This document shows, piece by piece, positions 2,650-44,361 of a DNA stretch of 44,361 nucleotides (position 1 is the first letter of the stretch; every line of letters starts with the position of its first letter). This DNA is from a virus. The stretch lies in IMG/VR virus record IMGVR_UViG_3300020119_000128, positions 1-44,361 of that record; one strand, 5' to 3'. A program made the translations under genes and the position numbers. The notes under the pieces are model-generated. The model worked only from the letters and a program-made list of their open reading frames with translations. It did no database searches and had not been told where the DNA came from.

Positions 2650-4158
2650 TCAGGCGCGGAATTTGATCTCCAAAACTTCGGTGGGGAGATCTTCGTAGAA
2701 GTCGAATTTGACCTGGGGAATGTCGCCGGACATGGGGTGAATGTTGAAGTAGCGGGTCGCCTGGCCAGGCTTCGGAGTCTTTTTGTAGTTGTGGAGAATG
2801 CGGTCCGGAGAGGTGCCGGCTTCGGTGGCGACTTTGCCAATGTTCTCAGTGATGGCGAGGCGGTAGCTGATGAAGGATTTCCGGAGGCCATTGTCTTTCC
2901 ATTTGATGCCGGCGCGGTTCGCAGTCTCGAGGAGGGCGTTGGTGGCGTTCTCGATCGGACAGACGGGGCCGCTGTCCTGGACGTAGCGCTTGAGCCAGGC
3001 GCGGGCGTTGGGTTGGATCTTGATTACGCGGTCGATCCCGATTTTGCGCGCGACTTCCTGGAGGACGTGGATCTCGCCAAAGCAGGTTTTGGTTTTGCCG
3101 TTAGGCAGATCGATGGTCCACGGGGCGTCGAGGTCCACCTGGGCCCAGTCGAGGACGGGGGAGCCGGGGGCGGAGAGTTCTTCGTGGCGAAGTCCGCAAA
3201 AGCCGTTGCAGATCATGAAAGGGATGAAGGGCTTGGCGCGTTTATTGCCGGCCTCGATGGCGACACGGGCGGCCAGAAGCTTGAGCATTTCTTCCGGAGT
3301 GAAGATTTCGATGCGGACAGGTTCGTTTTCGACGCGGACGACTTCGGCCATGGGGTTCCAGTTTTTGGGGACGTCGCCGGCTTCGCGGGCGTAGCGAAGG
3401 AAGTCGCCGATGTTGCCGCGGTAGTTGTTGCGGGTGCGTCGGGCAACGGGAAGTTTTCGGAGCCAGTCGTTGATCTGCTGCGAGGTGATGGAGGCGACGG
3501 GGCCGGGGAAGGACTGGACGAATTTGGGGAGGCGGCTGCGCCAGTCGTCCACGGTATTTTTTGAGGAGCCGTCTTTTTCGCGGATGGCAATCATTTCATC
3601 GAGGATCTCCTGGGATGGGCGATTACGGACGTCTGCAGGGCGGGTGTCGTTGTAATGGGCGATGACTTGTTCGAGCGAGACGCCGGCGGGGAGCTTAGGG
3701 ACGTGCTCGGTGTATTCGCTGATCACCAGCTCCATGGGCTTGATGATTTCGGCGCGCTCGAGGAGTTCGCAGCAACGGAGGTAGCTGGCGCATTGGGCTT
3801 CGCTGAAGCGGGCGCGGGCGAGCTCGCCATTGGCGAGGGCGATGGCTTTTCCTTTGGCGAAGGTGGTGGCGCCGTCGAGGGTGGCGCGCATGGTGCGCTG
3901 CCGGGGGCCGCCGGCGTGCTCGCGCCAGGCGATGGTGAAGGGGCCGGTCTTTTTGCGGCCATAGATCTTGATGACGACGGAGCCGGCGGGGACGATCTTG
4001 ACAGGTTCGCCGCGGGGCTTCTTTTGTTTCGGGATAGTGACGCGGACGCGGCCGGAGGGGTCGCGGGTGATTTGAAGGTTGATCCTGGGACGGGCCTGAG
4101 GGATTTGAAATTTGAAATTTGAAATTTGAGAGGGGGAGCGGACAGGTGTGGTGTTCAT
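2650..4158 (-). CDS. int: Tyrosine recombinase / phage integrase (502 aa)
   Basis: It should catalyse site-specific recombination between attP and the host attB. The N-terminal half holds an arm-type and a core-binding SAM-like region (about residues 140-270, with ITSQQINDWLRKL). The catalytic domain is about 280-470. The box I arginine is R324 in CGLRHEEL, a beta-hairpin lysine is near K355, the second arginine is R426 in NGLRKSF, and the nucleophile is Y458 in ILHNYKK. Two usual histidine positions are occupied by N423 and T449. Similar deviations occur, as far as I recall, in planctomycete and verrucomicrobial integrases. Residues 10-19 (SQISNFKFQI) come from an ATTTGAA tandem repeat. It faces the lysis genes and ends beside attP. 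Confidence 0.9.
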   Translation of the reverse strand: MNTTPVRSPSQISNFKFQIPQARPRINLQITRDPSGRVRVTIPKQKKPRGEPVKIVPAGSVVIKIYGRKKTGPFTIAWREHAGGPRQRTMRATLDGATTFAKGKAIALANGELARARFSEAQCASYLRCCELLERAEIIKPMELVISEYTEHVPKLPAGVSLEQVIAHYNDTRPADVRNRPSQEILDEMIAIREKDGSSKNTVDDWRSRLPKFVQSFPGPVASITSQQINDWLRKLPVARRTRNNYRGNIGDFLRYAREAGDVPKNWNPMAEVVRVENEPVRIEIFTPEEMLKLLAARVAIEAGNKRAKPFIPFMICNGFCGLRHEELSAPGSPVLDWAQVDLDAPWTIDLPNGKTKTCFGEIHVLQEVARKIGIDRVIKIQPNARAWLKRYVQDSGPVCPIENATNALLETANRAGIKWKDNGLRKSFISYRLAITENIGKVATEAGTSPDRILHNYKKTPKPGQATRYFNIHPMSGDIPQVKFDFYEDLPTEVLEIKFRA

Positions 4159-4185: not shown

Positions 4186-4392
4186 ATGGGCGAAGATTTT
4201 GATGTCCTGGATGAGAAGCGCGACGGCGATGGGATTCTTCTCGGAACGGTGCTTGTAAATCGTCTCACGGGCAAAATCTTGTTTTACGGCCGTTATGCTC
4301 GTGAGGAAGTGGACGAAATCTCCAAGCGAAGCAATCCAAAGAACTCTTTGGGCAAATCGCCGTCCAGCCAAGCCGGAAGCATGACGAACTGA
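4186..4392 (+). CDS. Possible small protein, antisense to cargo gene (68 aa, doubtful)
   Basis: An open frame from ATG 4186 with plausible protein character (GTVLVNRLTGKILFYGRYAREEVDEI). It overlaps the 3' end of the minus-strand gene 4293-4610 by 100 bases and diverges from the integrase. No ribosome site is obvious. I keep it because its codon pattern is reasonable, but it may be a shadow. Confidence 0.3.
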   Translation: MGEDFDVLDEKRDGDGILLGTVLVNRLTGKILFYGRYAREEVDEISKRSNPKNSLGKSPSSQAGSMTN

Positions 4393-4610
4393 TAGCCGCC
4401 GTGCTGCATCGCGGCCTCGTCTGGCAATTGGCGCGGGTCGATGCCCCAGATCAAGCCCAACCCATCCCTGGATTCATTAGCCTTAAGGGAGATCCAAGTT
4501 TTGGTTTCGGTTGGCCTCGAGACTAAGTCGGCTCCAATCCGCTCGGTCTTTTCTCCGCGGACGTTTGCCAGGAATTTAACGGCCTTCAATGCAGTAACTT
4601 TGTAGGACAT
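4293..4610 (-). CDS. Hypothetical cargo protein (105 aa)
   Basis: Reads from ATG 4610 to TAA 4293. It begins three bases after the stop of the secreted protein at 4614-5150, so the two are probably co-transcribed leftwards. The protein is soluble with no signal peptide. A segment around residues 70-92 (HGGYQFVMLPAWLDGDL) is compact and folded-looking, but I recognise no family. Base composition here is more balanced than the G-rich plus strand elsewhere, suggesting later acquisition. Position between integrase and regulators marks it as lysogenic-conversion cargo. Confidence 0.6.
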   Translation of the reverse strand: MSYKVTALKAVKFLANVRGEKTERIGADLVSRPTETKTWISLKANESRDGLGLIWGIDPRQLPDEAAMQHGGYQFVMLPAWLDGDLPKEFFGLLRLEISSTSSRA

Positions 4611-4613
4611 AAT

Positions 4614-5150
4614 TTATTTTTGGGTGCCGGCGATGGAGTTGGTCCGGGCGGGTTTATTTGTGGTGACAAGCAAGACCATGTGGGGAAGCCCATAGTCGAG
4701 AAATTCAAGAGTGCGATCGCCATATCGAATCTTCCCTAGCGGAAATGCCCTAACCGAAACTCTCTTGTCCAGGGATGGCCACAGGGCAATTGGATAGTTG
4801 GTGATAAAATATACGCGGTGAGTCGGAACCTGCTTTTCTCTTGTAACCGAGCTAACAGGAGGAGCATATCCACCAACGCTCTGATTTGCTGTCAGAGGGC
4901 CCGGTCCAAGAGAGTGAGTTTCGTAAACAGTTTTTTCCCCAGAAAGAACGATCGCGTTGGTAAGAACTTGTGTAATTTTCCATTCGACTGTTTTCCAGAG
5001 AACACTTAGATCGGCGTTGTAGAGCTTTCCATCGACGTCGCGGTAACTAGATGCGGCTGGGACGAGGTTTGTCGTCAGCGTTTGAGCAGAGACGGGAAGG
5101 ATGGCCAATAGCAAATAGCAGATGGCAAATGATCGGATTGTCGCATTCAT
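4614..5150 (-). CDS. Secreted cargo protein with repeat-derived signal peptide (178 aa)
   Basis: A Sec signal peptide is evident: MNATIRS, a hydrophobic core FAICYLLLAILP, then VSAQ with cleavage likely after Ala22. The core is encoded by a GCCATCTGCTATTTGCTATT run belonging to the dispersed AATAGC/ATGGCA repeat families. The mature protein begins TLTTNLVPAASSYRDVDGKLYN, a start I associate with exported hypothetical proteins of Verrucomicrobiota. It is beta-rich with no catalytic motif. Lying on the minus strand between integrase and regulators, it is probably expressed in the lysogen and acts in the envelope. Function unknown. Confidence 0.7.
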   Translation of the reverse strand: MNATIRSFAICYLLLAILPVSAQTLTTNLVPAASSYRDVDGKLYNADLSVLWKTVEWKITQVLTNAIVLSGEKTVYETHSLGPGPLTANQSVGGYAPPVSSVTREKQVPTHRVYFITNYPIALWPSLDKRVSVRAFPLGKIRYGDRTLEFLDYGLPHMVLLVTTNKPARTNSIAGTQK

Positions 5151-5159
5151 GGGAGTGGC

Positions 5160-5366
5160 ATGGGGTTTGCGGTTTATGATTTGGGAGTGGGCGCGAAAAA
5201 GTCTATTCCGGGGAAGGACCAGTGTCCTTGCGGCGCTTGCGAGGCTTACCGTACTTTATTGGCGGGGATGTCTGAGACGGAATTGCTTGCCCTGGCGGAG
5301 TTGTTGTCGCGGAGGGCTGAGGATCTGAAGGAGCGTGTGGCGCGGCGCCGTGCCCGGCGGAACTGA
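5160..5366 (+). CDS. Possible small cysteine-containing protein, antisense to the RHH regulator (68 aa)
   Basis: ATG 5160 follows GGGAGTGG. The protein has a CPCGAC cysteine cluster and a strongly helical, charged C-terminus (LLALAELLSRRAEDLKERVA). Codon style (GCG, GAG, TTG, CTG) matches the phage's plus-strand genes. However, its 3' 164 bases lie opposite the proline-rich end of the minus-strand regulator at 5203-5634, and its start is only nine bases from the divergent 5150 start, leaving no room for a promoter. One of the overlapping ends may not be translated. Confidence 0.45.
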   Translation: MGFAVYDLGVGAKKSIPGKDQCPCGACEAYRTLLAGMSETELLALAELLSRRAEDLKERVARRRARRN

Positions 5367-5634
5367 TTTGTCTTTTTGCCTCGGCGGCTATTTCGTAGGC
5401 GACCTGGTGTTCGGGATATTTGGCCGGCGTCGGAACATGCGTGGGCTCAAGCCGGAATTCGATAGGGACAACCAGGCGGAAATCGTTTGCCTCGATGGCT
5501 TCGACGGCCGCCTCGATGGCTTCCTGAGCCAAGGTATGCTTTTTCTGCTTAATTTTCTGCGCGCAGTTTTCCAGCCGCCTTGTTAGTTCCGGACTTAACC
5601 GCAGGGAGATAGGAACGGTCTTTTTAGTGGCCAC
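5203..5634 (-). CDS. Ribbon-helix-helix DNA-binding regulator, leftward (143 aa)
   Basis: I choose GTG 5634; the open frame extends upstream to 5763 but that part crosses the promoter region. Residues 2-45 (TKKTVPISLRLSPELTRRLE... then an alanine-rich helix) match the CopG/Arc ribbon-helix-helix pattern: a short strand, then two helices. Residues about 85-143 are proline-rich and likely disordered, with a basic KYGKPRKRRKD near the end. It is divergent from the second such regulator at 5715, with paired promoters between, so it is the best lysogeny-repressor candidate. Leftward transcription would continue into the cargo genes and perhaps int. Confidence 0.7.
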   Translation of the reverse strand: MATKKTVPISLRLSPELTRRLENCAQKIKQKKHTLAQEAIEAAVEAIEANDFRLVVPIEFRLEPTHVPTPAKYPEHQVAYEIAAEAKRQISSAGHGAAPHAPSDPQPSATTTPPGQAIPSQTSPPIKYGKPRKRRKDTGPSPE

Positions 5635-14398: not shown

Positions 14399-14713
14399 AT
14401 GAATCAGTATCGGCAGGGAGATGTTTTGATTGAGCGGGTGGAGGAAATTCCGCGGGGGATAAAGCGGCAGAAGCATAAGGGAAAGATCGTTTTGGCGCTG
14501 GGCGAAGCGACGGGGCATCATCATTGCCTGGAAACGGAGGCGGATGCGGCTGATTGGTGGAAGACGGATGGCGGAGATCAGTTTGTGGAGACCCGGGCTT
14601 CGGCTGTGATCACGCACCAGGAGCACGCGCCGATTCCGTTGCCGGCGGGACGGTACCGAGTGCGCCGGCAGCGAGAGTATTCGCCGGAAGCGATCCGCAA
14701 CGTTGCTGATTAG
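14399..14713 (+). CDS. Conserved hypothetical protein of the QGDVL...REYSPEAIRNVAD family (104 aa)
   Basis: ATG 14399. The protein opens with YRQGDVLIERVEEIP, has a central EATGHHHCLE segment and HQEHAPIPLPAGRYRVRRQ, then ends REYSPEAIRNVAD. I recognise this as a widely distributed small beta-barrel-like family whose genes normally precede a DUF6745-type protein, exactly as here. The role of the pair is not established to my knowledge. Histidines in the TGHHH and HQEHAP segments could bind a metal. Confidence 0.7.
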   Translation: MNQYRQGDVLIERVEEIPRGIKRQKHKGKIVLALGEATGHHHCLETEADAADWWKTDGGDQFVETRASAVITHQEHAPIPLPAGRYRVRRQREYSPEAIRNVAD

Positions 14714-14730
14714 CTATGAGGAGGCGATTT

Positions 14731-15951
14731 ATGGTGCCCCAAGAGTTCATCGAGGCGTGCGATTATCCGGGCGAGTTGCGGATCGGCGAGGTCGAAAAAT
14801 CGTTGCTCGATTATTTGAGCGCACTGGGACTGGAGCGAAAGGTTCAGCGGATCGAGCCAGGCTGGGAGCTGGGGGATTACCCGGCGCTGAAGCGGTACGC
14901 TAACGAAGTGCTGGACGATTTCGCGAAGCGCAGCGGGTACAAAAGAGACGCCAGAGACGCCATAGACGCCAGAGACGCCATAGACGCCAGAGACGCCATA
15001 GACGCCAGAGCCGCCATAGACGCCAGAGCCGCCAGAGCCGCCATAGCCGCCAGAGCCGCCATAGCCGCCATAGCCGCCATAGACGCCATAGCCGCCAGAG
15101 CCGCCATAGCCGCCAGAGCCGCCAGAGCCGCCAGAGCCGCCAGAGCCGCCATAGCCGCCAGAGCCGCCATAGACGCCAGAGCCGCCATAGACGCCAGAGC
15201 CGCCAGAGATGCCAGAGCCGCCATAGACGCCATAGACGCCATAGACGCCATAGACGCCATAGACGCCATAGACGCCAGAGCTATCGATCGATTCGCCGCC
15301 TGGTGCATTCAGTACGGCGGTTGGTATTATTGGGATTGGGAGTTGTCCTGGCTGGCAGCGCTTTTTCTTGGGGCGAAGGAGCTGGATAAATCAGCGGTGG
15401 TGAAGTGGTCAGAGCCGCTGTATCGCGCGTTTGTAAATGGCGCATGGATGCTTCATTGTACGGAGGACACTTTGTTTTGGGTGGCAAAACCAAAGGTGAA
15501 CGTCGAGCTGATCAACGGACAGCGGCGGCTTCATAATGCGACTTACGCCGCGTTGGAGTCCGACATTGAGAACATCTATTTCTGGCACGGAGTGCTGGTG
15601 CCGGCCTTCGTGGTGGTCCGGCCTGAGTGGATAACGGTCAAACATGTCGAGACTGAAGAGAATGCCGAGGTCCGGCGGATTATGATCGAGCGCTACGGGC
15701 AGGCGAAGTACCTGCTGGATTCTGGAGCGTCACAGATCCACCAGGATGATTTTGGGACTTTGTACCGCAAGGAGATCTCGAACGATGAGCCGCTGGTAAT
15801 GGTGAAGGTGGTGAATTCGACGCCGGAAGCGGATGGCTCGTTTAAGGATTACTTTTTGCGTGTGCCTCCTTCGATCAGCCGGGCGCGTGAAGCGGTGGCG
15901 TGGACGTTCGACCGGGCTGAGGGCGATTACGATCCGGCGTTGCAAACATAA
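14731..15951 (+). CDS. DUF6745-like protein interrupted by a 37-unit (D/A)A(I/R) repeat (406 aa)
   Basis: ATG 14731 is chosen over 14716 because AGGAGG stands six bases before it. Residues 1-72 form a helical N-terminal part. Residues 73-183 are 37 uninterrupted tripeptides Asp/Ala-Ala-Ile/Arg, predicted as one long alanine-rich helix of about 111 residues. From 187 the conserved region resumes (WCIQYGGWYYWDWELSWLAA) and continues with YFWHGVLVPAFVVVRPEWIT and RAREAVAWTF, typical of the DUF6745 family. It follows its usual partner at 14399. The repeat uses AGA and ATA codons that are otherwise rare here. Confidence 0.7.
   Translation: MVPQEFIEACDYPGELRIGEVEKSLLDYLSALGLERKVQRIEPGWELGDYPALKRYANEVLDDFAKRSGYKRDARDAIDARDAIDARDAIDARAAIDARAARAAIAARAAIAAIAAIDAIAARAAIAARAARAARAARAAIAARAAIDARAAIDARAARDARAAIDAIDAIDAIDAIDAIDARAIDRFAAWCIQYGGWYYWDWELSWLAALFLGAKELDKSAVVKWSEPLYRAFVNGAWMLHCTEDTLFWVAKPKVNVELINGQRRLHNATYAALESDIENIYFWHGVLVPAFVVVRPEWITVKHVETEENAEVRRIMIERYGQAKYLLDSGASQIHQDDFGTLYRKEISNDEPLVMVKVVNSTPEADGSFKDYFLRVPPSISRAREAVAWTFDRAEGDYDPALQT
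14947..15279 (+). repeat. Minisatellite: 37 tandem copies of a 9-bp unit G(A/C)CGCCA(T/G)A
   Basis: Exactly 333 bases, 37 units, in frame throughout. Units differ almost only at two positions: A or C (Asp or Ala) and T or G (Ile or Arg); one unit has GAT for GAC. A nine-base unit changes protein length in three-residue steps without frameshift, so copy number can vary freely. Confidence 0.97.
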
Positions 15952-16817: not shown

Positions 16818-16880
16818 GGAGGACCGGCGCTGTGAGCGGCGGAGGACCGGCGCTGTGAGCGGCGGAGGACCGGCGCTGTG
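16818..16880 (+). repeat. 23-bp tandem repeat, nearly three copies, ending in the initiator start codon
   Basis: GGACCGGCGCTGTGAGCGGC recurs at 16821, 16844 and 16867, a 23-base period. The third copy is cut off after CGCTGTG, and that GTG (16878) is the start of the replication gene. Each copy carries GGAGGA, so the ribosome site is repeat-derived. Confidence 0.9.
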
Positions 16881-17876
16881 AATAGCACAGAACGAGCGTA
16901 CCGGCTGGCGATGAGGCAGCACGATTTCGACAAGCAGCATTTGAAGGTGCTGGATTTTGTTTTGTTCCATTCGTACGGCCGGCCGGATGCGAGGGCGAAG
17001 GCGTGGGTTCCGCGGCAGCTTTGTATTGCGATTTGCACGGGGATGGATGACGGGGATTTGTCGAGAACGGTGAAATGGTTGAAGGCGCAGCGGGTTATCG
17101 AGCAAACGGCAGATGAGGATGGGGCGTGGTTTGCGATGTTGCCGCCGGGTACGTGGAAGGTGTCGCTGAAGGTGGATAGCGAGTCGATGGCGAATGATAT
17201 GGAGGAATGGTTATACCGGGCGGATCCGGGGCATCCGGAATTCTGGGAAATACCAGCGAGTTTGAGCGATGCTTTGAGGGAGGTATTTGTCGAGTCGTCG
17301 AGCGCGAATGGTCGAGCGGAGTCGAGAGTCGAGCCGTCGAGCGACAAGGCGTCGAGTTGGATCGGATCCAAGTCGGTGCAGAGGGGGATAACCAACGATG
17401 AGGTTGGGAAATCCCCAAATCCGGGCAATGCTAGCCCGGGCGGTCGAGTTGGGGAATTCCCAAGTCAGTCGAGGCCTGGCGCTGGGGCGCCGGGTTTTGG
17501 CGTTGGGAATTTCCCAACTTCGGTCCCTCGAGAACGAGAAGCTCGAGCACGAGAAGATTCCCGATGCTCGACATCTCGGGAACGAGTACTCGGTCTCGAT
17601 AAGGAGCGGGTTAACGTCTCGGATTTCCAGGCGTACGTTGAGCGGGAGTTATTTGGGCTGATCGGCAATGAGGAGCGGGGAGGCGAATGTGGCCTGATGT
17701 GGGAGAGGGCGATCCGAGACATGCCGGAGGAGCTGAATGAGCTGATCGGCCAGGCGAAGTTGCTTCAACAGGAGGGGAAGATAACGAGGAGCGTCGGGGC
17801 CTGGCTTAACGCGAGTGTTTACCGGGCATTGGAGCGGCGGAAGACGGAACGGTTGAGGGTTGCAGAAAGAAGGTAA
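16878..17876 (+). CDS. Replication initiator, O-like, with internal iterons (332 aa)
   Basis: GTG 16878. The N-terminal 75 residues fit a winged helix (LKVLDFVLFHSYG ... LSRTVKWLKAQRVIEQ) as in lambda O and related initiators. Residues about 140-235 are low-complexity and contain VG(K/E/N)(S/F)P three times, encoded by three palindromic DNA sites. The C-terminal 90 residues are helical (FQAYVERELFGLIG ... ITRSVGAWLNASVYRALE) and may contact a helicase or loader. The gene is the only replication gene seen, so host helicase and polymerase would be recruited. An origin inside the initiator gene is the lambda arrangement. Confidence 0.7.
   Translation: MNSTERAYRLAMRQHDFDKQHLKVLDFVLFHSYGRPDARAKAWVPRQLCIAICTGMDDGDLSRTVKWLKAQRVIEQTADEDGAWFAMLPPGTWKVSLKVDSESMANDMEEWLYRADPGHPEFWEIPASLSDALREVFVESSSANGRAESRVEPSSDKASSWIGSKSVQRGITNDEVGKSPNPGNASPGGRVGEFPSQSRPGAGAPGFGVGNFPTSVPREREARAREDSRCSTSRERVLGLDKERVNVSDFQAYVERELFGLIGNEERGGECGLMWERAIRDMPEELNELIGQAKLLQQEGKITRSVGAWLNASVYRALERRKTERLRVAERR
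17404..17517. other. Candidate replication origin: three palindromic iterons
   Basis: Three 15-bp sites of the form TTGGG(A/G)A(A/T)(T)(C/T)CCCAA lie at 17404-17418, 17449-17463 and 17503-17517. The second and third are perfect apart from the central base. They are followed by two CTCGAG(A/C)ACGAGAAG direct repeats (about 17527-17556). Placement inside the initiator gene matches lambda-type origins, where the initiator binds iterons in its own gene. Confidence 0.6.
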
Positions 17877-21172: not shown

Positions 21173-23523
21173 CGATATCGGAGGAGGGCAGGAAGGAGGT
21201 GGCGGCGCTGGTGCGTCCGCCGGAGCGGTTAAAGATATCGGAGTGGGCGCACAAGGAGGCGTGGATGCCGGAGGAGGGGAACGCGGAGCCGGGGCATTAC
21301 AGCCTGGCGCGAATGCCGCATCAGGAGGAGATGCTGGATGATCCGTTGGATCCGGATGCGCGTGAGATTTTCTGGATGATGGCAAGCCAGGCGGCGGGGA
21401 AGACGACGTGCCTGAATTTGATCACGGAGTACACGATCAAGGTTTGGCGGAAGTCGGTGCTGGTGGTGAGGGCGACGTTGGAAACGGCGCGGGAGTGGAT
21501 CAACGACAAGTTTTTGCCGATGACGGAGGCGACGCCGTGCATGAGGGGGCTTTTGAAGGATCCACGGGAGAAGGGGAGCCGGAGTTCGATGTTAAAGCGG
21601 CGGTTTCCGGGCGGGACATTGAAGGTGGCAGGGGCGAAGTCGCCGGCGACGTTTCGTGGGAGCAGCCAGGGGAAGGTTTACCAGGATGAGATCGATTCGT
21701 ACGAGGTGACGAAGGAGGGTGATCCGTGCGCTTTGGCGGACCGGGCGACGATCACGTTCAGCGATGCGACGAAGTTGAAGTGTTGCACGCCGACGATCAA
21801 GGGGTTTTCTAGGATCGAGGCGGGGTTCGAGCGCGGGGACCAGCGGTATTACTTCGTGCCGTGTGTTTGTTGCGGGCGGATGCAGTGGCTGAAGACGGAG
21901 CAGATGAAGTTCAGTTTTACGGCGGAGGAGTATGCGAGGTTTCAGAAACATCCAAGCACCAACATCCAAGCTTCCGCCTACGCTCAAAAGCAGCTTCGGC
22001 GCGACGAGCCAGAGAAGATCCAAGATCCAAACTTCAAGGGCCACCTCTCCCCTAACCCCTCTCCCCCAGGAGCGGAGAGGGGGACGGAAATGGCGGAGCC
22101 GAATACGAAGGAGTTTCAGGAGATAGCGAATGGATACAGGTGGCAGGTGGGGAATTTTGCGATCCGGGACACGAGGCGGTGCATTTATGTGTGCGAGGGT
22201 TGCGGGCGTGGCTGGACGGATCGGCAGCGGTTGGAGGCGTATTGGAGCGGCTGGCGGGAGAATCGGCCGGTGGTGGTGGACGGGGAGGAGCTGCGGGCGG
22301 CCTGGTGCCCGACGGCGGAGTTCAAGGGGATCCGAAGCCGGCACATTAACGGGATGTACCTGAGCATGGGGTTGAAAAAGGGGATGGTGAATTATTTGCA
22401 CCAGTTCGCGGAGGATTTCCTGGAGGCAGTTAAGGGTGGGCGGGAGACGTTGATGGTATGGACCAACATTTTCAAGACGGTGGCGTACGAGGATCCGCAC
22501 CAAAAGATTGCGTGGAAGGAGCTGAAGGAGCGGGCAGAGGATTATGTGGCGAGCGGCGATGAGGGGGCGGAGTTGCCGGCACAGGCGGTGTGGATTTGTT
22601 TCGGGGCGGACGTGCAGCAGGATCGGGTGGAGTTTTTGTTTTTCGGATGGGGGGAGGGGCAGGAGTGCTGGGTGTTGGAGTGGACGACGTTGAACGGGGA
22701 TTTCGACATGCCGAGCATGCAGAAGCGGGTACAGGAGTTCCTGGATAATAAACGGTTCAAGCATCCGGTGCTGGGTGAGCTGACAGTGAGCGCGGGGGCG
22801 TTTGATAGCGGGCATCAGACGCGGGTGAAAGCGGTGTACCAGTTTTGCGCGCGGAACACTTTTAAGAATTGGTGGAGTGTTAAGGGGTTTGATAACGCAT
22901 TGGGGGCGGTTTATCAGGTGGCGAAGGAGAAGGTTTATGGGGGGAAGCGGTTTAATCTGAATGTGGATTACCTGAAGACGGTGTTGTTCGATCGATTGTT
23001 GAACAAGGAGCCGGGGCCGCGATACATCCATTTCCCGAAGGAGGAGGTGACGGTGACTGATGCGCCGGCGGTGGCGGGCGGTGATCCGGTGAAGCGGGTG
23101 GTGCGGACGCGGTTCGGGGAGTTGTTTTACAACCAGTTGTGCAGCGAGAAGAGGGTGGTGGTGAAGACGGGCAAGAAGCCGAGGGAGGGATTTAAGCTGC
23201 AATGGGTGAAGGTGGTGAGTTCGGCGAGGAACGAGGTGCTGGATATGACGGTGTATGCGTTTGGGGTGTATGAGATATCGAGGCAGGAGGAGGCAATCGC
23301 GAGCAAGTGGAAGGAGGTGCAAGGAAAGCTCCAACATTCCGCCTACGCTCGAAAGCAGCTACGGCGGGACGAGCCAGGGGATGGCAAAGGGCAAATGGCA
23401 GATGGCAAAGAGGAGAGGAAAATTCCAACATCCAACATCCAACATCCAGAGAAGCACCAAGCTGCAGGGAAGCCGGGGAAGAAGAGGATCAGGATCAGGA
23501 GTCCGTTTGGGGGGTTTAGGTGA
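21169..23523 (+). CDS. Terminase large subunit, GpA family, with in-frame repeat insertions (784 aa)
   Basis: It packages DNA into proheads and cuts the concatemer. The Walker A-like segment is MASQAAGKTT (residues 70-80), Walker B is GKVYQDEID (about 168-176), and the nuclease part contains GAFDSGHQTR (about 545). A zinc-knuckle-like CVCCG and CEGCG pair lies between. GpA enzymes are about 600-700 aa; this one is longer because residues about 261-306 and 720-765 are encoded by dispersed repeats, including two copies of the 36-bp element in the same frame. The first insertion falls between ATPase and nuclease halves. GTG start overlaps the small subunit. Confidence 0.93.
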   Translation: MTISEEGRKEVAALVRPPERLKISEWAHKEAWMPEEGNAEPGHYSLARMPHQEEMLDDPLDPDAREIFWMMASQAAGKTTCLNLITEYTIKVWRKSVLVVRATLETAREWINDKFLPMTEATPCMRGLLKDPREKGSRSSMLKRRFPGGTLKVAGAKSPATFRGSSQGKVYQDEIDSYEVTKEGDPCALADRATITFSDATKLKCCTPTIKGFSRIEAGFERGDQRYYFVPCVCCGRMQWLKTEQMKFSFTAEEYARFQKHPSTNIQASAYAQKQLRRDEPEKIQDPNFKGHLSPNPSPPGAERGTEMAEPNTKEFQEIANGYRWQVGNFAIRDTRRCIYVCEGCGRGWTDRQRLEAYWSGWRENRPVVVDGEELRAAWCPTAEFKGIRSRHINGMYLSMGLKKGMVNYLHQFAEDFLEAVKGGRETLMVWTNIFKTVAYEDPHQKIAWKELKERAEDYVASGDEGAELPAQAVWICFGADVQQDRVEFLFFGWGEGQECWVLEWTTLNGDFDMPSMQKRVQEFLDNKRFKHPVLGELTVSAGAFDSGHQTRVKAVYQFCARNTFKNWWSVKGFDNALGAVYQVAKEKVYGGKRFNLNVDYLKTVLFDRLLNKEPGPRYIHFPKEEVTVTDAPAVAGGDPVKRVVRTRFGELFYNQLCSEKRVVVKTGKKPREGFKLQWVKVVSSARNEVLDMTVYAFGVYEISRQEEAIASKWKEVQGKLQHSAYARKQLRRDEPGDGKGQMADGKEERKIPTSNIQHPEKHQAAGKPGKKRIRIRSPFGGFR
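21973..22008 (+). repeat. 36-bp mobile element (copy 1)
   Basis: Runs from TCCGCCTACGCTC to GGCGCGACGAG. Removing it restores the uninterrupted host repeat CCAAGCT/CCAGAGAAG. It encodes SAYAQKQLRRDE-like residues in frame. Confidence 0.9.
22042..22084 (+). repeat. CACCTCTCCCC palindromic repeat (copy 1)
   Basis: CTCTCCCC and its complement GGAGAGGGG form the arms. Translated as HLSPNPSPPGAERGT in the terminase. Confidence 0.9.
23338..23373 (+). repeat. 36-bp mobile element (copy 2)
   Basis: Lies in the 3' part of the terminase gene, in the same translation frame as copy 1 (SAYARKQLRRDE). Excising it joins CCAACAT to CCAGGG, close to the usual repeat text. Further ATGGCAAAGGGC and CCAACATCC repeats follow to the gene end. 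Confidence 0.88.
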
Positions 23524-24292: not shown

Positions 24293-24413
24293 GTTTTGGT
24301 GCGCCTGGCCGGCGCGACAAGGGGGGGGCGCCGCCAGGGGAATAGCCGATAGCCAATAGCCAATAGCCAAGGGGAGCGAGGACGAATGGGGGCTTTGACT
24401 TGGGGGGGTAGGC
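24293..24413. repeat. Repeat-filled gap: AATAGCC run and element fragment
   Basis: Contains GCCGGCGCGACAAGG, a fragment like the end of the 36-bp element, a G-run, and AATAGCCGATAGCCAATAGC repeats. No gene is seen on the plus strand before GTG 24414. Confidence 0.75.
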
Positions 24414-40187: not shown

Positions 40188-41834
40188 ATGAAGACGAAAA
40201 ATTTAAGCACGGCCACCTCTCCCCTAACCCCTCTCCCCCAGAGGCGGAGAGGGGGACTGTGCGCGAGCCAGGCCTGCCACCGGGCCGGCTATGTGGCTTT
40301 CTGCTTTCTGATTTTTGCTTTCTGCTTTTCGGGATGGGCACAGCAGACGATTACGACGGCGACGGTGACGTTCACGAACGCGGCGGGGACAACCAATGGG
40401 CAGACGATTTCTGTGAATGGAGTGGTGCGGACGTTCACCAATACGATCACAACGGCAAATGTGCAGGTGGCGACGGGGACGAATATTGGGATCGCATCGA
40501 GCAACCTTTTCCTGGCTTACGCGAGTTTTCCCCAGGCGAACACACTCATCTCGAGGCCGGCGACGAACATTGTGCAGTTCCAGAGCTATCCGGGGTTTGC
40601 GCTGACGGTGCTGGCGGGAACGAGCCCGACGGGCTGGGCGAGCGTGAGTTACTCGACGAACACGCTGACGAGCATGACGGTGGTCCGGGTACCGCGGAGC
40701 GGGATGGGGAATTATGAGCGGACAAATGTGGAGAGCGGATTGATCGAGTTGATCAGCTCGAATGAGGCGACGAACATTGTGCCGCTGACGGCGCCGGCGT
40801 TCATTTTGTATCGGCCGATCGACGCCGCGGGCCTGACGAACTTCATTCTGGCGATGGGGACGCGTTGCACGAATTTCTCGCTGATCCTTTCGCAGAACGG
40901 AACGAACTTCACGGTGGCGGTTTCGAATTACTTCCAGGGATTGTGGGACACGCTGGGGACGATGGCGTTTGAGCCGGCGGCAAACTTTCAGCCTGGCTGT
41001 GATGTGCTAACGAACATTTGCGCGCTGGGCAACTCGATACTGTCGGGCCTGAGCTACATCGAAAATCCGGATAATATCCTGCTGAAGCATACGAATGGGG
41101 TGGAACGGTTGCGGGCGAATGAGGGAGGGGATTTCACGGCGAAGTTCGAGGATGGGACAACGTTCCTGGATGCGGACACGAGCCACAATATCAAGCTGGA
41201 GAGTTCAGGAATTAACCGGTTTGAATCGACGGACGGCGGCGAGACGGTGATCCGGAGCAAGTCGGGGAATAATGGGCTGTCGGTCCGCGGGGATACGGAT
41301 GCGGTGCAGATGTATGGGGTGGCGAGCGAGAGCCTGCAGAATTGGCCGGCGACGTTGATTGGGACAACAACGAACTTCCTGAGCGATGCGGACAATTCGG
41401 GGACGTCGGATACGACGGTGGATAGCTTCAATGTGCCGGCGAACACAATGACCAATAACGGGGATGGTGTGATCCGGAATATCGGGGTGAAGTTTTTGAG
41501 CGGGGGAGGGACGAAGCGGGTGCAGGTGTATTTCGCCGGGACGAGCATTTTTGATTCGGGCGCGGTGTCGGCGAGCTCGGAGAGTTATGTCTCGATCCGG
41601 TGCGAGGTGACGCGGCGGGACTCGAGCACGGTGGCGTACAACAGCGGGGCGACGGGAACGATTGATGGGGCGGGGACGTCGTTTGCGAAGGTGGGAACGA
41701 TCGGAGGGTTGGATTTCAGCACGACGAAGAACTTTTACATCATCCTGACGAGCTCGAGCAGCGGGGCGTTTCTGCGGGTGCAGAGCGATAACACGAGGTG
41801 GGCGCCGAGCCCGGCGTGGGCAGGGTTTAATTGA
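40188..41834 (+). CDS. Tail fibre protein with repeat-encoded N-terminus (548 aa)
   Basis: ATG 40188. Residues 9-35 are encoded by a CACCTCTCCCC palindromic repeat (ATSPLTPLPQRRRGG). Residues about 35-50 (VAFCFLIFAFCFSGWA) look like a signal peptide but come from a TTTCTGCTTTCTG-type repeat. The remaining 500 residues are Thr/Asn/Gly-rich beta structure (TTATVTFTNAAGTTNGQTIS), with a head-like C-terminal domain (TKNFYIILTSSSSGAFLRVQ). It is a receptor-binding fibre by size, composition and place. Whether the fibre truly uses the first 50 residues is open; TTG or GTG starts further in are possible. Confidence 0.75.
   Translation: MKTKNLSTATSPLTPLPQRRRGGLCASQACHRAGYVAFCFLIFAFCFSGWAQQTITTATVTFTNAAGTTNGQTISVNGVVRTFTNTITTANVQVATGTNIGIASSNLFLAYASFPQANTLISRPATNIVQFQSYPGFALTVLAGTSPTGWASVSYSTNTLTSMTVVRVPRSGMGNYERTNVESGLIELISSNEATNIVPLTAPAFILYRPIDAAGLTNFILAMGTRCTNFSLILSQNGTNFTVAVSNYFQGLWDTLGTMAFEPAANFQPGCDVLTNICALGNSILSGLSYIENPDNILLKHTNGVERLRANEGGDFTAKFEDGTTFLDADTSHNIKLESSGINRFESTDGGETVIRSKSGNNGLSVRGDTDAVQMYGVASESLQNWPATLIGTTTNFLSDADNSGTSDTTVDSFNVPANTMTNNGDGVIRNIGVKFLSGGGTKRVQVYFAGTSIFDSGAVSASSESYVSIRCEVTRRDSSTVAYNSGATGTIDGAGTSFAKVGTIGGLDFSTTKNFYIILTSSSSGAFLRVQSDNTRWAPSPAWAGFN
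40214..40288 (+). repeat. CACCTCTCCCC palindromic repeat (copy 5)
   Basis: First module to 40257, then GAGCCAGGCCTGCCACCGG as in copies 3 and 6. Lies in the 5' end of the fibre gene. Confidence 0.9.
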
Positions 41835-41864: not shown

Positions 41865-44361
41865 ATGAAAAATAAAGAAGCCACCTCTCCCCTAACCCCT
41901 CTCCCCCAGAGGCGGAGAGGGGAACCGGCAAGGCGCCCAGGTCAGGCCCGCCACCGGCGGAGAGGGGGACCGCTACTCTGCTTTCTGCTTTTTGCTTTCT
42001 GCTTTTCAGGGTGGGCGGGGACGGTGGATGCGACTTATACGTTCACGGATTTTCAACTGACGGCGCAGGCGGTGCGGAGGGTGACACAAACGCCGCTGGA
42101 GCCGTTTGCGGATTATAACGGGGCGATCTTGAGCGCGGCGCCGCGGTCGATTGTGACGGGGACGAATGGGAGCGTGACCTTCAGCAACACGGTGGCGGGA
42201 TACTCGTATCGGGTGACGTTGGACACGCCGTATGGAAGCACGGTGCGGACGTCGGGGTACCCGGCGAACTTGAGCGGGCCGGTGAACGGGAGGGATTGGC
42301 TGGGAGAGCAGAAGGGGATGCGGTTTTATTATTTGTATAACACCAATGGGGCGGGCCTGGCAGTGGCGGCGGGAACTAACCTGACGATGGTGCGCGTGGC
42401 AGGGACGAACACGCTCAACCTGGCTGATCCGCTGGTGCTGGGTGATTGGCGGATTTCGCACGGGACGGCTGGAGGCGATTTGACATTCTTTAACCTGACG
42501 GATCTTGGGCAAGTGCGGATAAGATCGGATGGGGAATTCATACTCGATAACTCGCAGGGAGGAAGATTTATCGGCGATGGATCGGGCCTCACGAATTTAT
42601 CATCGGCCGGGGCATTGACGAACAATGAGGCGCGAGACGTGCGGCTGAACAGCAGCCTGAAAATAGTGCAACCAGGTCCTGGATTTTCGATAAGCGTGAC
42701 CAACAATCAGGGTTCGAACACTTTTGTTTTGGACGACGGGGGCAATGCAACCTTTTTGGATACGGTGACAGCGGTGCAGTTCAACGGAACGGTGCCGGCG
42801 TCGGATATCAGCGGGAAGATCCCAAATGACCGGCTTTCTGGAATGACAAACATGGCGATGATGACGCCGTATGATTTTGGAGCGGCGGGCGACGGGGTTA
42901 CGGATGACACGGCGGCGATCTGGCGCTGGGTGGATACGTGCAGCAAAAGCAATTGGATTGCTTATCTGCCGCCGGCATTTGGCGACTATTACAAAATCAC
43001 GGATGCGATCAACATTACGAATTTCACCGGGCTGAGAATTTTAGGAGCTGGCGGGCAGGTGGTAGGAACATCTCCAGTGGTGACACGGTGCCGCATTCAC
43101 CAGATGACGTCCGGGAAAGACGGGTTTGTGATCGGCCGGACGAACAATGGGGCGGTAACGCCAGACCATATCGTCATCGAGGGAATCGCGATTACGGCAG
43201 AGACCTATAACTGGACATCGAGGGGGATTGCGTTCGCTGGCACGGCGGCGGATTCGGACTGCGACACCGTTCGAGATTGCACGGTGCGAAACTTTGGCAA
43301 GGGGATTTACCTGCGGTCGGCGTCGAGCATGGAGATTGTGAATTGCTCGGTCGGCTACGGCTGCGGAGAGGGGATTCGGATTGGTGACAGTTCGGCGGTG
43401 GGCGGCGGCTCACAGGTTATCAACGGAGTTTACCTGAGGATGATTCACATGGGGCAGTGCAAGACGAACGAGATCCATTGCGATGGCGGGTCGGCGATTC
43501 TGATTGATTCGTGTGACGCAGGAACAGGAGAGGCGACGGATCATAGCGGAGATAACGAGCATGGTTTACTGATCGAGAATGGGGCGGACGTGACGGTGAT
43601 TAACTGCATCGACTGGCAGGGGACGAGCCTGGCAACGAATAGTTTCATTGTGGCGGATGGCGGGGCGATTCCTGGAGGCGTGACGCTTAAGCTGATTAAC
43701 GTGGCCGCTGGCGGAACAAGCTGCCCTTACGCGCTGGTGGCAACGAACGCAAGGGTCTATGTCGAGAGGTTTGTGGGAACGGCGGCCAATACGCCGGCAG
43801 TGCTCTGGAACGGGCAGCCGCAAGATCTGACAGCGATCGGTTCGGCAATCCAGGTGACAATCGTTTTTGGTCGGACGGAAACGGAAACCATTGTTCCTGG
43901 AATCCCGACGTACTATACGGGGTCGGCGATCAATTCCTTGCCGGGAGGGTCGATCGCGAGCCTGCGAACATCGGATGCTTCTGAGATTAGCGATCGGCTG
44001 GATTTCAGGGCGCGGTTTACTTATGGCGGCTCGGGGGCGCACGGGGCAACGGAGACGGTCAATCTGCTGGACTTTCACCAGATGGAGGCGGATGGAGCGA
44101 TTACCAATATTCACGGGGACAACGTGAACATCAATTATTCGACCGGGACAAAGGCAACGACCAATGCCGGGCAAGTCACCCTGACAGCGACCAACTCATG
44201 GGTAATCGCCGGGCCCAGCATTACGGTGACGACGAATTTGCAATCGAATGGCGAGAGGGATTTCACGGTTTCAGCCACAAACCAGCCTTATGCAGTTTTT
44301 TGGCAGCAAAAAAACGCGGGGACGGATGGGGACCATTTTACGAGCGCGACGTGGACGAACA
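41865..44361 (+). CDS. Tail spike with pectate-lyase-like beta-helix, N-terminal 790 codons before the circle join
   Basis: ATG 41865; the frame crosses the terminal repeat and ends at base 516 (961 aa in total). Residues 6-36 are encoded by a CACCTCTCCCC repeat and 38-50 (LLCFLLFAFCFSG) by a TTTCTGC repeat. Residues 330-345 (MTPYDFGAAGDGVTDDTAAI) are the hallmark start of pectate-lyase-3-type right-handed beta-helices; strand repeats follow (CDTVRDCTVRNFGKGIYLRS, SVGYGCGEGIRIGDSSAVGG). Such spikes bind or cleave host surface polysaccharide. The acidic catalytic residues cannot be assigned by eye. A jelly-roll-like tip lies at the C-terminus. Confidence 0.88.
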   Translation, partial: MKNKEATSPLTPLPQRRRGEPARRPGQARHRRRGGPLLCFLLFAFCFSGWAGTVDATYTFTDFQLTAQAVRRVTQTPLEPFADYNGAILSAAPRSIVTGTNGSVTFSNTVAGYSYRVTLDTPYGSTVRTSGYPANLSGPVNGRDWLGEQKGMRFYYLYNTNGAGLAVAAGTNLTMVRVAGTNTLNLADPLVLGDWRISHGTAGGDLTFFNLTDLGQVRIRSDGEFILDNSQGGRFIGDGSGLTNLSSAGALTNNEARDVRLNSSLKIVQPGPGFSISVTNNQGSNTFVLDDGGNATFLDTVTAVQFNGTVPASDISGKIPNDRLSGMTNMAMMTPYDFGAAGDGVTDDTAAIWRWVDTCSKSNWIAYLPPAFGDYYKITDAINITNFTGLRILGAGGQVVGTSPVVTRCRIHQMTSGKDGFVIGRTNNGAVTPDHIVIEGIAITAETYNWTSRGIAFAGTAADSDCDTVRDCTVRNFGKGIYLRSASSMEIVNCSVGYGCGEGIRIGDSSAVGGGSQVINGVYLRMIHMGQCKTNEIHCDGGSAILIDSCDAGTGEATDHSGDNEHGLLIENGADVTVINCIDWQGTSLATNSFIVADGGAIPGGVTLKLINVAAGGTSCPYALVATNARVYVERFVGTAANTPAVLWNGQPQDLTAIGSAIQVTIVFGRTETETIVPGIPTYYTGSAINSLPGGSIASLRTSDASEISDRLDFRARFTYGGSGAHGATETVNLLDFHQMEADGAITNIHGDNVNINYSTGTKATTNAGQVTLTATNSWVIAGPSITVTTNLQSNGERDFTVSATNQPYAVFWQQKNAGTDGDHFTSATWTN
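41882..41972 (+). repeat. CACCTCTCCCC palindromic repeat (copy 6)
   Basis: Both modules are present, ending in CGGAGAGGGGGACCG. It is in the 5' coding part of the spike gene, as copy 5 is in the fibre gene. Confidence 0.9.
44235..44361. repeat. Right copy of the 127-bp terminal direct repeat
   Basis: Identical to bases 1-127 and in the same reading frame of the spike gene, marking circular closure. Confidence 0.95.

Follow-up and report, generated by a model that had tools for sequence, protein, structure and literature searches.

Organization of the locus

The analyzed sequence (hereinafter, the window) is the entire 44,361-nucleotide stretch of the IMG/VR virus record IMGVR_UViG_3300020119_000128, which represents a tailed phage. 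One of its genes encodes, in a single open reading frame (ORF), an N-terminal domain, a long array of tandem 9-bp units and a C-terminal region with a DUF6745 domain (Table 1). The terminase, the portal protein and the major head protein are encoded downstream of this gene in the record, and a Mu Gam-like protein and DNA methylases are encoded around it.

Table 1. Features of the array locus, in window coordinates
Feature	Coordinates	Strand	Comments
'QGDV' partner gene	14399..14713	+	104 aa; phrog_27831 (PHROG match, E 3.8e-14); YRQGDVLI...GEATGHHH...HQEH...RQREY
Probable ribosome-binding site	14719..14724	+	AGGAGG, read directly from the sequence
Array protein gene	14731..15951	+	406 aa; ORF opens at 14716 (411 aa)
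N-terminal domain	14731..14943	+	Mixed helix/strand, well predicted; conserved in relatives with 3-aa arrays
Array	14944..15279	+	37 units of 9 bp, A[G/T]AG[A/C]CGCC, coding (R/I)(D/A)A
C-terminal region with DUF6745 domain	15280..15948	+	Pfam match 15520-15948; PF20530

Because of the AGGAGG sequence, the ATG at 14731, rather than the first ATG of the ORF at 14716, is the likely start codon. The protein had been described, from the nucleotide sequence alone, as DUF6745-like, with an in-frame insert between conserved halves, and both proposals are borne out. The protein passes the curated PF20530 cut-off of 27 bits with a score of 143.5 bits (E 6.8e-42; residues 269-411 against profile positions 63-206), and the array is flanked by the N-terminal domain on one side and the DUF6745 domain on the other. 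Profile positions 1-62 are not matched in the window protein, and because the match begins at position 63, only the C-terminal part of the protein is filed as DUF6745; in two relatives (L028 and L017), the match begins at profile position 6-10. N-termini related to that of the window protein were found in L004 and L014.

The segment 14947-15279, for which 37 units of 9 bp had been reported, is exactly 333 bp long, that is, 37 x 9 bp, and the units follow one another head-to-tail and in frame. Counted in the phase of the preliminary description, which recognized two variable sites and four unit types, the units are GCCGCCATA (10 copies), GACGCCATA (9), GCCGCCAGA (9) and GACGCCAGA (8), in agreement with that account except for one additional copy, GATGCCAGA, the lone exception in the array, which carries a synonymous GAC to GAT change. 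Tandem Repeats Finder (TRF) gives the array a score of 410 at period 9 and of 453 at period 36, far above all other repeats of the window, and units two positions apart match at a frequency of 0.65, compared to 0.28 in shuffled arrays. The array is written in codons that are in the minority elsewhere in the record: in the other genes, AGA accounts for 35 of the 600 arginine codons and ATA for 37 of the 384 isoleucine codons, so the rarity of these two had been noticed correctly, and the same holds for GCC (90 of 783 alanine codons) and GAC (108 of 402 aspartate codons). The array is also open in the antisense direction (14877-15308, minus strand; 143 aa, MASMAALAAL...), which is a by-product of the unit sequence.

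Association with the 'QGDV' gene

Of the 66 loci with enough flanking sequence, 55 have the small 'QGDV' gene immediately ahead of the DUF6745 gene, and no gene is common downstream across the loci examined. The same gene pair, without an array, is found in cellular copies in Streptomyces and Deinococcus as well as in Microcystis phages of the LMM01 group. Under the best explanation, the array protein and the 'QGDV' protein comprise a two-gene phage accessory module. Sequence searches detected no relatives with solved structures for DUF6745 or for the 'QGDV' partner.

Arrays in related proteins

The C-terminal domain was used to scan IMG/VR and GTDB genomes for relatives, and plasmid records were added; 80 of the 272 IMG/VR relatives were kept, and the resulting 103 distinct DUF6745 ORFs are to be regarded as a sample rather than a census. 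The question, raised in the preliminary description, of whether other DUF6745 proteins contain such repeats has a clear answer: in 78 of these 103 ORFs, an array separates the N-terminal part from the DUF6745 domain. The repeat unit is 3 aa long in 38 of the arrays and 4 aa long in 40, and units of 2, 5, 6 or 7 aa are absent among the 78. The initial view of a single 9-bp minisatellite was thus too narrow: arrays of 3- or 4-residue units recur family-wide, and that of the window represents one of their spellings. A second set of loci, identified via the 'QGDV' gene and partly overlapping with the first, contains arrays in 41 of the 61 loci inspected (4 aa in 37, 3 aa in 4).

The spellings are diverse. 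The 3-aa arrays combine R/L, R/I, R/M, R/W, R/Q/L or R/H/S/L with D/A, and the 4-aa arrays read QVx[DA], SVx[DA], SLx[DA], QLx[DG], ATx[DA], SQLx or SAAx. The largest array, that of L121, has about 150 12-bp units and takes up 602 aa of a 917-aa reading frame. Arrays are present in the deposited Mycobacterium abscessus prophage prophiGD102-1 (gp38, 45 units), in Nocardia farcinica NCTC11134 (38 units) and in phage cta39025 (29 units). The two Nocardia records (L034 and L055) overlap at 99.9% identity with small gaps only, and the array frame is shifted in one of them, probably by a sequencing indel. In L092, a region that matches L015 occurs twice (about 2657-4027 and 4238-5608), 1581 bp apart and with identical match scores; either the array gene is tandemly duplicated or the second copy was created in the assembly.

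No array is found in the Microcystis phages LMM01 and MaMV or in the DUF6745 proteins of Streptomyces and Obscuribacter, in which the middle part is non-repetitive; in the Deinococcus and Methylobacterium proteins (L035 and L059), LRR-like N-termini replace the array, and these genes adjoin genes of the STM4011-STM4015 family. A Candidatus Obscuribacter metagenome-assembled genome (G005, L045-L054) yields 11 DUF6745 matches on many contigs; the copies read lack arrays of 3- or 4-aa units. A search with the C-terminal domain of the window protein itself detected no cultured phages, and one with another family member as the query retrieved two. In the within-species comparison for M. abscessus, the gene was covered, among the matches listed, only by prophiGD102-1 itself.

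A protein search with the array only led to few confirmed candidates (three loci), and a DNA pattern search also matched unrelated short stretches (L003, L005, L006, L008 and L009). L003 (377-1069) encodes a different phage protein, without a Pfam match, that ends in a short alanine-rich repeat of the AAARAARAAW type, so such arrays may extend beyond DUF6745. Literature searches, with bioRxiv preprints and most subscription papers outside their reach, produced no description of such arrays, and DUF6745 is not named in any paper of the literature searched.

Turnover of unit number and order

Array sizes among the DUF6745 relatives range from 6 to 150 units. The order of units was compared in 13 pairs of relatives with C-terminal DNA 78-93% identical, using the best local alignment of the unit strings against shuffled strings; two pairs (L102/L109 and L113/L119) had no unit words in common and were uninformative. 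In 10 of the 11 informative pairs, the order fell inside or close to the shuffled range, and one pair, L066/L077, retained some order (score 14 versus 8.9, s.d. 1.5, in shuffles). Among relatives, then, the order of units is mostly not conserved. Even L085 and L087, which are 93.6% identical over 3.3 kb, differ in the runs of units at the 3' end of the array. The differences in unit number and order between related contigs, which the preliminary description had put forward as the point to compare, are thus apparent for both properties.

The sole difference between L076 and L077 is a 171-nt gap in the array (19 units), with zero mismatches elsewhere in the full alignment, and L132 and L133 differ by 36 nt in the array (3 units) and by one other mismatch. 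The former pair, initially taken for a strain difference, was downgraded because the mismatches reported by BLAST vanished in the full alignment. Since the flanks are practically identical, each of these pairs may be one sample assembled twice, and length change within one phage or population is accordingly only suggested by them. Of the proposed in-frame length variation, then, the part that pertains to differences between relatives stands, and the part that pertains to a single phage is a suggestion.

Many array lengths from short-read contigs are uncertain because the array runs to the end of the contig, which is the case for 30 of the 78 arrays in the DUF6745 set and 16 of the 41 behind the 'QGDV' gene. 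In at least two contigs (IMGVR_UViG_3300045303_000172 and 3300044822_000062), the 'QGDV' gene and the start of the array are at one end, and the end of the array and DUF6745 are at the other, as expected if a circular genome is broken at the array. The window array is not obviously beyond the resolution of short-read assembly because the longest exact repeat within it is 50 bp.

Variation within and between arrays

Site patterns were analyzed in 74 arrays, which are related by descent, so that the counts per array are not independent; L090, in which the array is read in another frame, was excluded. Nucleotides with a minor frequency of at least 0.2 occur 51 times in codon position 1, 108 times in position 2 and only 6 times in position 3. 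Two units of the same array differ, on average, by 0.020 synonymous and 1.156 nonsynonymous codon differences; 57 of the 74 arrays have no synonymous difference at all, and in 55 the variable positions in a unit number exactly two. In the 38 arrays of 3-aa units, both sites stay variable or, in the shortest arrays, nearly so.

The codon scaffold in which these two sites are embedded changes between lineages. The D and A codons agree in the third base in 58 of 60 arrays (CC in 40, TT in 18), and L015 and L092, about 80% identical in the aligned stretches, use GAC/GCC and GAT/GCT, respectively, throughout. Arginine is encoded by CGC, CGG, AGA or AGG in different lineages, and the hydrophobic alternative is the residue one base away from the local arginine codon: L accompanies CGN, I accompanies AGA, and M or W accompanies AGG. 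On the tree of the DUF6745 domain, at least 16 changes of the D/A third base and 27 of the R codon are needed, these counts being approximate given that many inner branches are weak. The recurrence of the same residue polymorphism after the scaffold has changed would amount to convergence on a residue rule and, by implication, to selection on the protein. Under the simplest reading, arrays are repeatedly reduced to few units or homogenized, and the R/hydrophobic and D/A polymorphisms are then rebuilt by mutation. Beyond what the preliminary description recognized, two positions of the protein are kept variable while synonymous variation is erased, and the polymorphism returns on the new scaffold.

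In the 3-aa arrays, the fractions of R and D cluster near one half (0.52 and 0.57, respectively), and the net charge is near zero, so a balanced mixture of charges seems to be favored; across arrays, the contents of R and D were not significantly correlated (rho 0.22, p 0.21). A fixed coupling of the two variable sites was considered and rejected: the sign of their association is random between arrays (positive in 15, negative in 18), so no fixed pattern code is apparent.

Structure prediction

In the AlphaFold2 model of the 406-aa form, residues 1-60 (pLDDT mostly 86-98) and the C-terminal region (mostly above 80) are well predicted, and helices span residues 73-127 and 132-198, with pLDDT of about 47-78 in the array. 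Helices through the array, with low confidence inside it, are predicted for both the 3-aa and the 4-aa classes, and in the 4-aa model pLDDT is below 60 over much of the array. Of the single helix of about 111 residues that had been envisaged, the helical character is borne out by the predictions, at this low confidence. A helical turn comprises 3.6 residues. Units of 3 and 4 residues straddle this value, which would fit a helix with variable residues winding around its whole surface. Foldseek comparison of both models with the PDB yielded nothing with E below 0.5.

Evolutionary interpretation

We interpret the array as a hypervariable helical spacer or surface whose diversity is kept by selection. 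More specifically, with a probability that we put at slightly above one half (about 0.55), it is a probably helical segment, within the two-gene phage accessory module, in which slippage or recombination drives the turnover and diversifying selection at the protein level maintains the mixture. Slippage or unequal recombination would expand, contract and homogenize the array, and diversifying selection would restore the mixture of charged and uncharged residues, with R versus L/I/M/W/G/S at one position and D versus A/G/S at the other. Conceivably, the mixed surface contacts or evades a putative partner that differs from host to host or from one competing phage to another, and the length and pattern of the array might tune this contact. 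The low confidence of the helix, the array-less relatives and the derivation of most arrays from metagenome assemblies count against this explanation, as do the shared descent of the arrays, the random sign of the association between the two sites, the order retained in L066/L077 and the lack of a structural relative by sequence or fold.

The most serious competitor, which we nevertheless deem unlikely, is a neutral coding minisatellite, that is, a tolerant linker that slips and drifts without selection for diversity. Slippage-like blocks, manifest in the higher TRF score at period 36 than at period 9 and in the lag-2 match of units, are what such a linker would show, and relatives without arrays exist. 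The strain on this scenario comes from the synonymous sites, the neutral yardstick: a merely tolerant linker is expected to vary at silent sites as it does at tolerated ones, and the arrays, with their almost invariant synonymous sites, do not. Nor is it obvious under neutrality why the 38 arrays of 3-aa units remain variable at both sites or why the unit length is restricted to 3 and 4 residues.

Selection for diversity at the protein level also fares better than the very improbable scenario in which the repeated DNA itself matters, as a recombination site, an unusual structure or a protein-binding array, and the protein reading is incidental. The identity of the 9-bp unit words in the window and in L004, with flanks that are 78% identical, would be compatible with such an element, but between lineages third bases and whole codons change while the residue rule stays, the unit is either 9 or 12 bp long, relative to shuffled sequences, the plus strand of the array shows reduced folding (DNA z 5.98, RNA z 5.16), and there is no Rfam match for the array.

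Targeted mutagenesis, for example by a diversity-generating retroelement that writes the two sites, would account for the restriction of the variation to fixed positions. We consider it hardly probable given that the variable sets include G/T, A/C, T/C/G and A/T/G rather than adenine only, and that no reverse transcriptase (RVT_1 match) is present in the 44-kb record, which may be a fragment. The least probable of all, collapse or invention of repeats in the assembly of short-read metagenomes, is compatible with the arrays that reach contig ends and make many lengths unreliable, but is countered by the 50-bp limit on exact repeats in the window array, by the arrays in deposited isolate and prophage genomes, and by the reading rule kept by the units, which no assembler can know.

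Among known systems, the window protein clearly belongs to DUF6745 with its C-terminal half, and the 'QGDV' gene is shared with cellular members, but in the cellular members examined the middle is non-repetitive or the N-termini are LRR-like, and the window array lies outside the matched domain. As in the collagen-like (GXY) proteins of phages and bacteria, 9-bp units in variable number are embedded in frame in a coding region; unlike in these proteins, there is no glycine at every third residue, the unit being (R/I)(D/A)A, a helix rather than a triple helix is predicted, and 12-bp units are equally common. TAL effector repeats, with their repeat-variable di-residues, are likewise arranged in tandem, with about two residues varying on an otherwise fixed scaffold, but those units are 33-35 residues long, compared to 3-4 here, and the array shows no evidence of nucleic acid recognition. 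The proteins diversified by retroelements are also phage proteins variable at set positions, but the absence of a reverse transcriptase in the record and the base changes that are not adenine-specific set the arrays apart. Thus, the resemblance to each of these three systems is in single respects only, and the defining features fail. Coding minisatellites and VNTR proteins in general (reviewed in PMC3899988) share with the arrays the turnover of copy number and order by slippage or recombination: as in hypervariable coding VNTRs, both number (6 to 150 units) and order (at 78-93% flank identity) differ between relatives. The difference is that the arrays pair near-zero synonymous variation with persistent nonsynonymous variation at two sites, in dozens of lineages and with two unit lengths.

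If the selection-based explanation is correct, a fast-evolving segment with directly readable design rules, namely, 3 or 4 residues, two variable sites and erased synonymous sites, belongs to a module that is spread over several bacterial phyla in their phages and prophages. It would then be testable whether phages diversify a binding surface with simple coding minisatellites, and the breakage of many viral metagenome contigs at one gene would be accounted for. That about 80 related phages and prophages have this gene with repetitive and differently spelled middles, each usually varying at two amino-acid positions only, points to a widespread, unstudied protein whose middle is kept variable by evolution. 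A broader generalization, possible in our view although doubtful, is that this is a general phage system in which a variable helical surface is built from a two-position residue alphabet: slippage would supply the lengths and orders, recurrent point mutation at the two sites the letters, and selection by hosts or rival phages the diversity, making it a counterpart, at the protein level, of the diversity-generating retroelements without a dedicated enzyme.

Other tandem repeats in the window

The window contains five separate short arrays whose 7-bp units differ in sequence from one array to the next (4103-4129, 23424-23448, 24341-24370, 40296-40328 and 41977-42005), and heptamers make up more than one-third of the tandem repeats listed by TRF in this phage. 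A perfect 23-bp repeat (GGAGGACCGGCGCTGTGAGCGGC, 2.8 copies) occupies positions 16818-16881, just before the gene at 16878.
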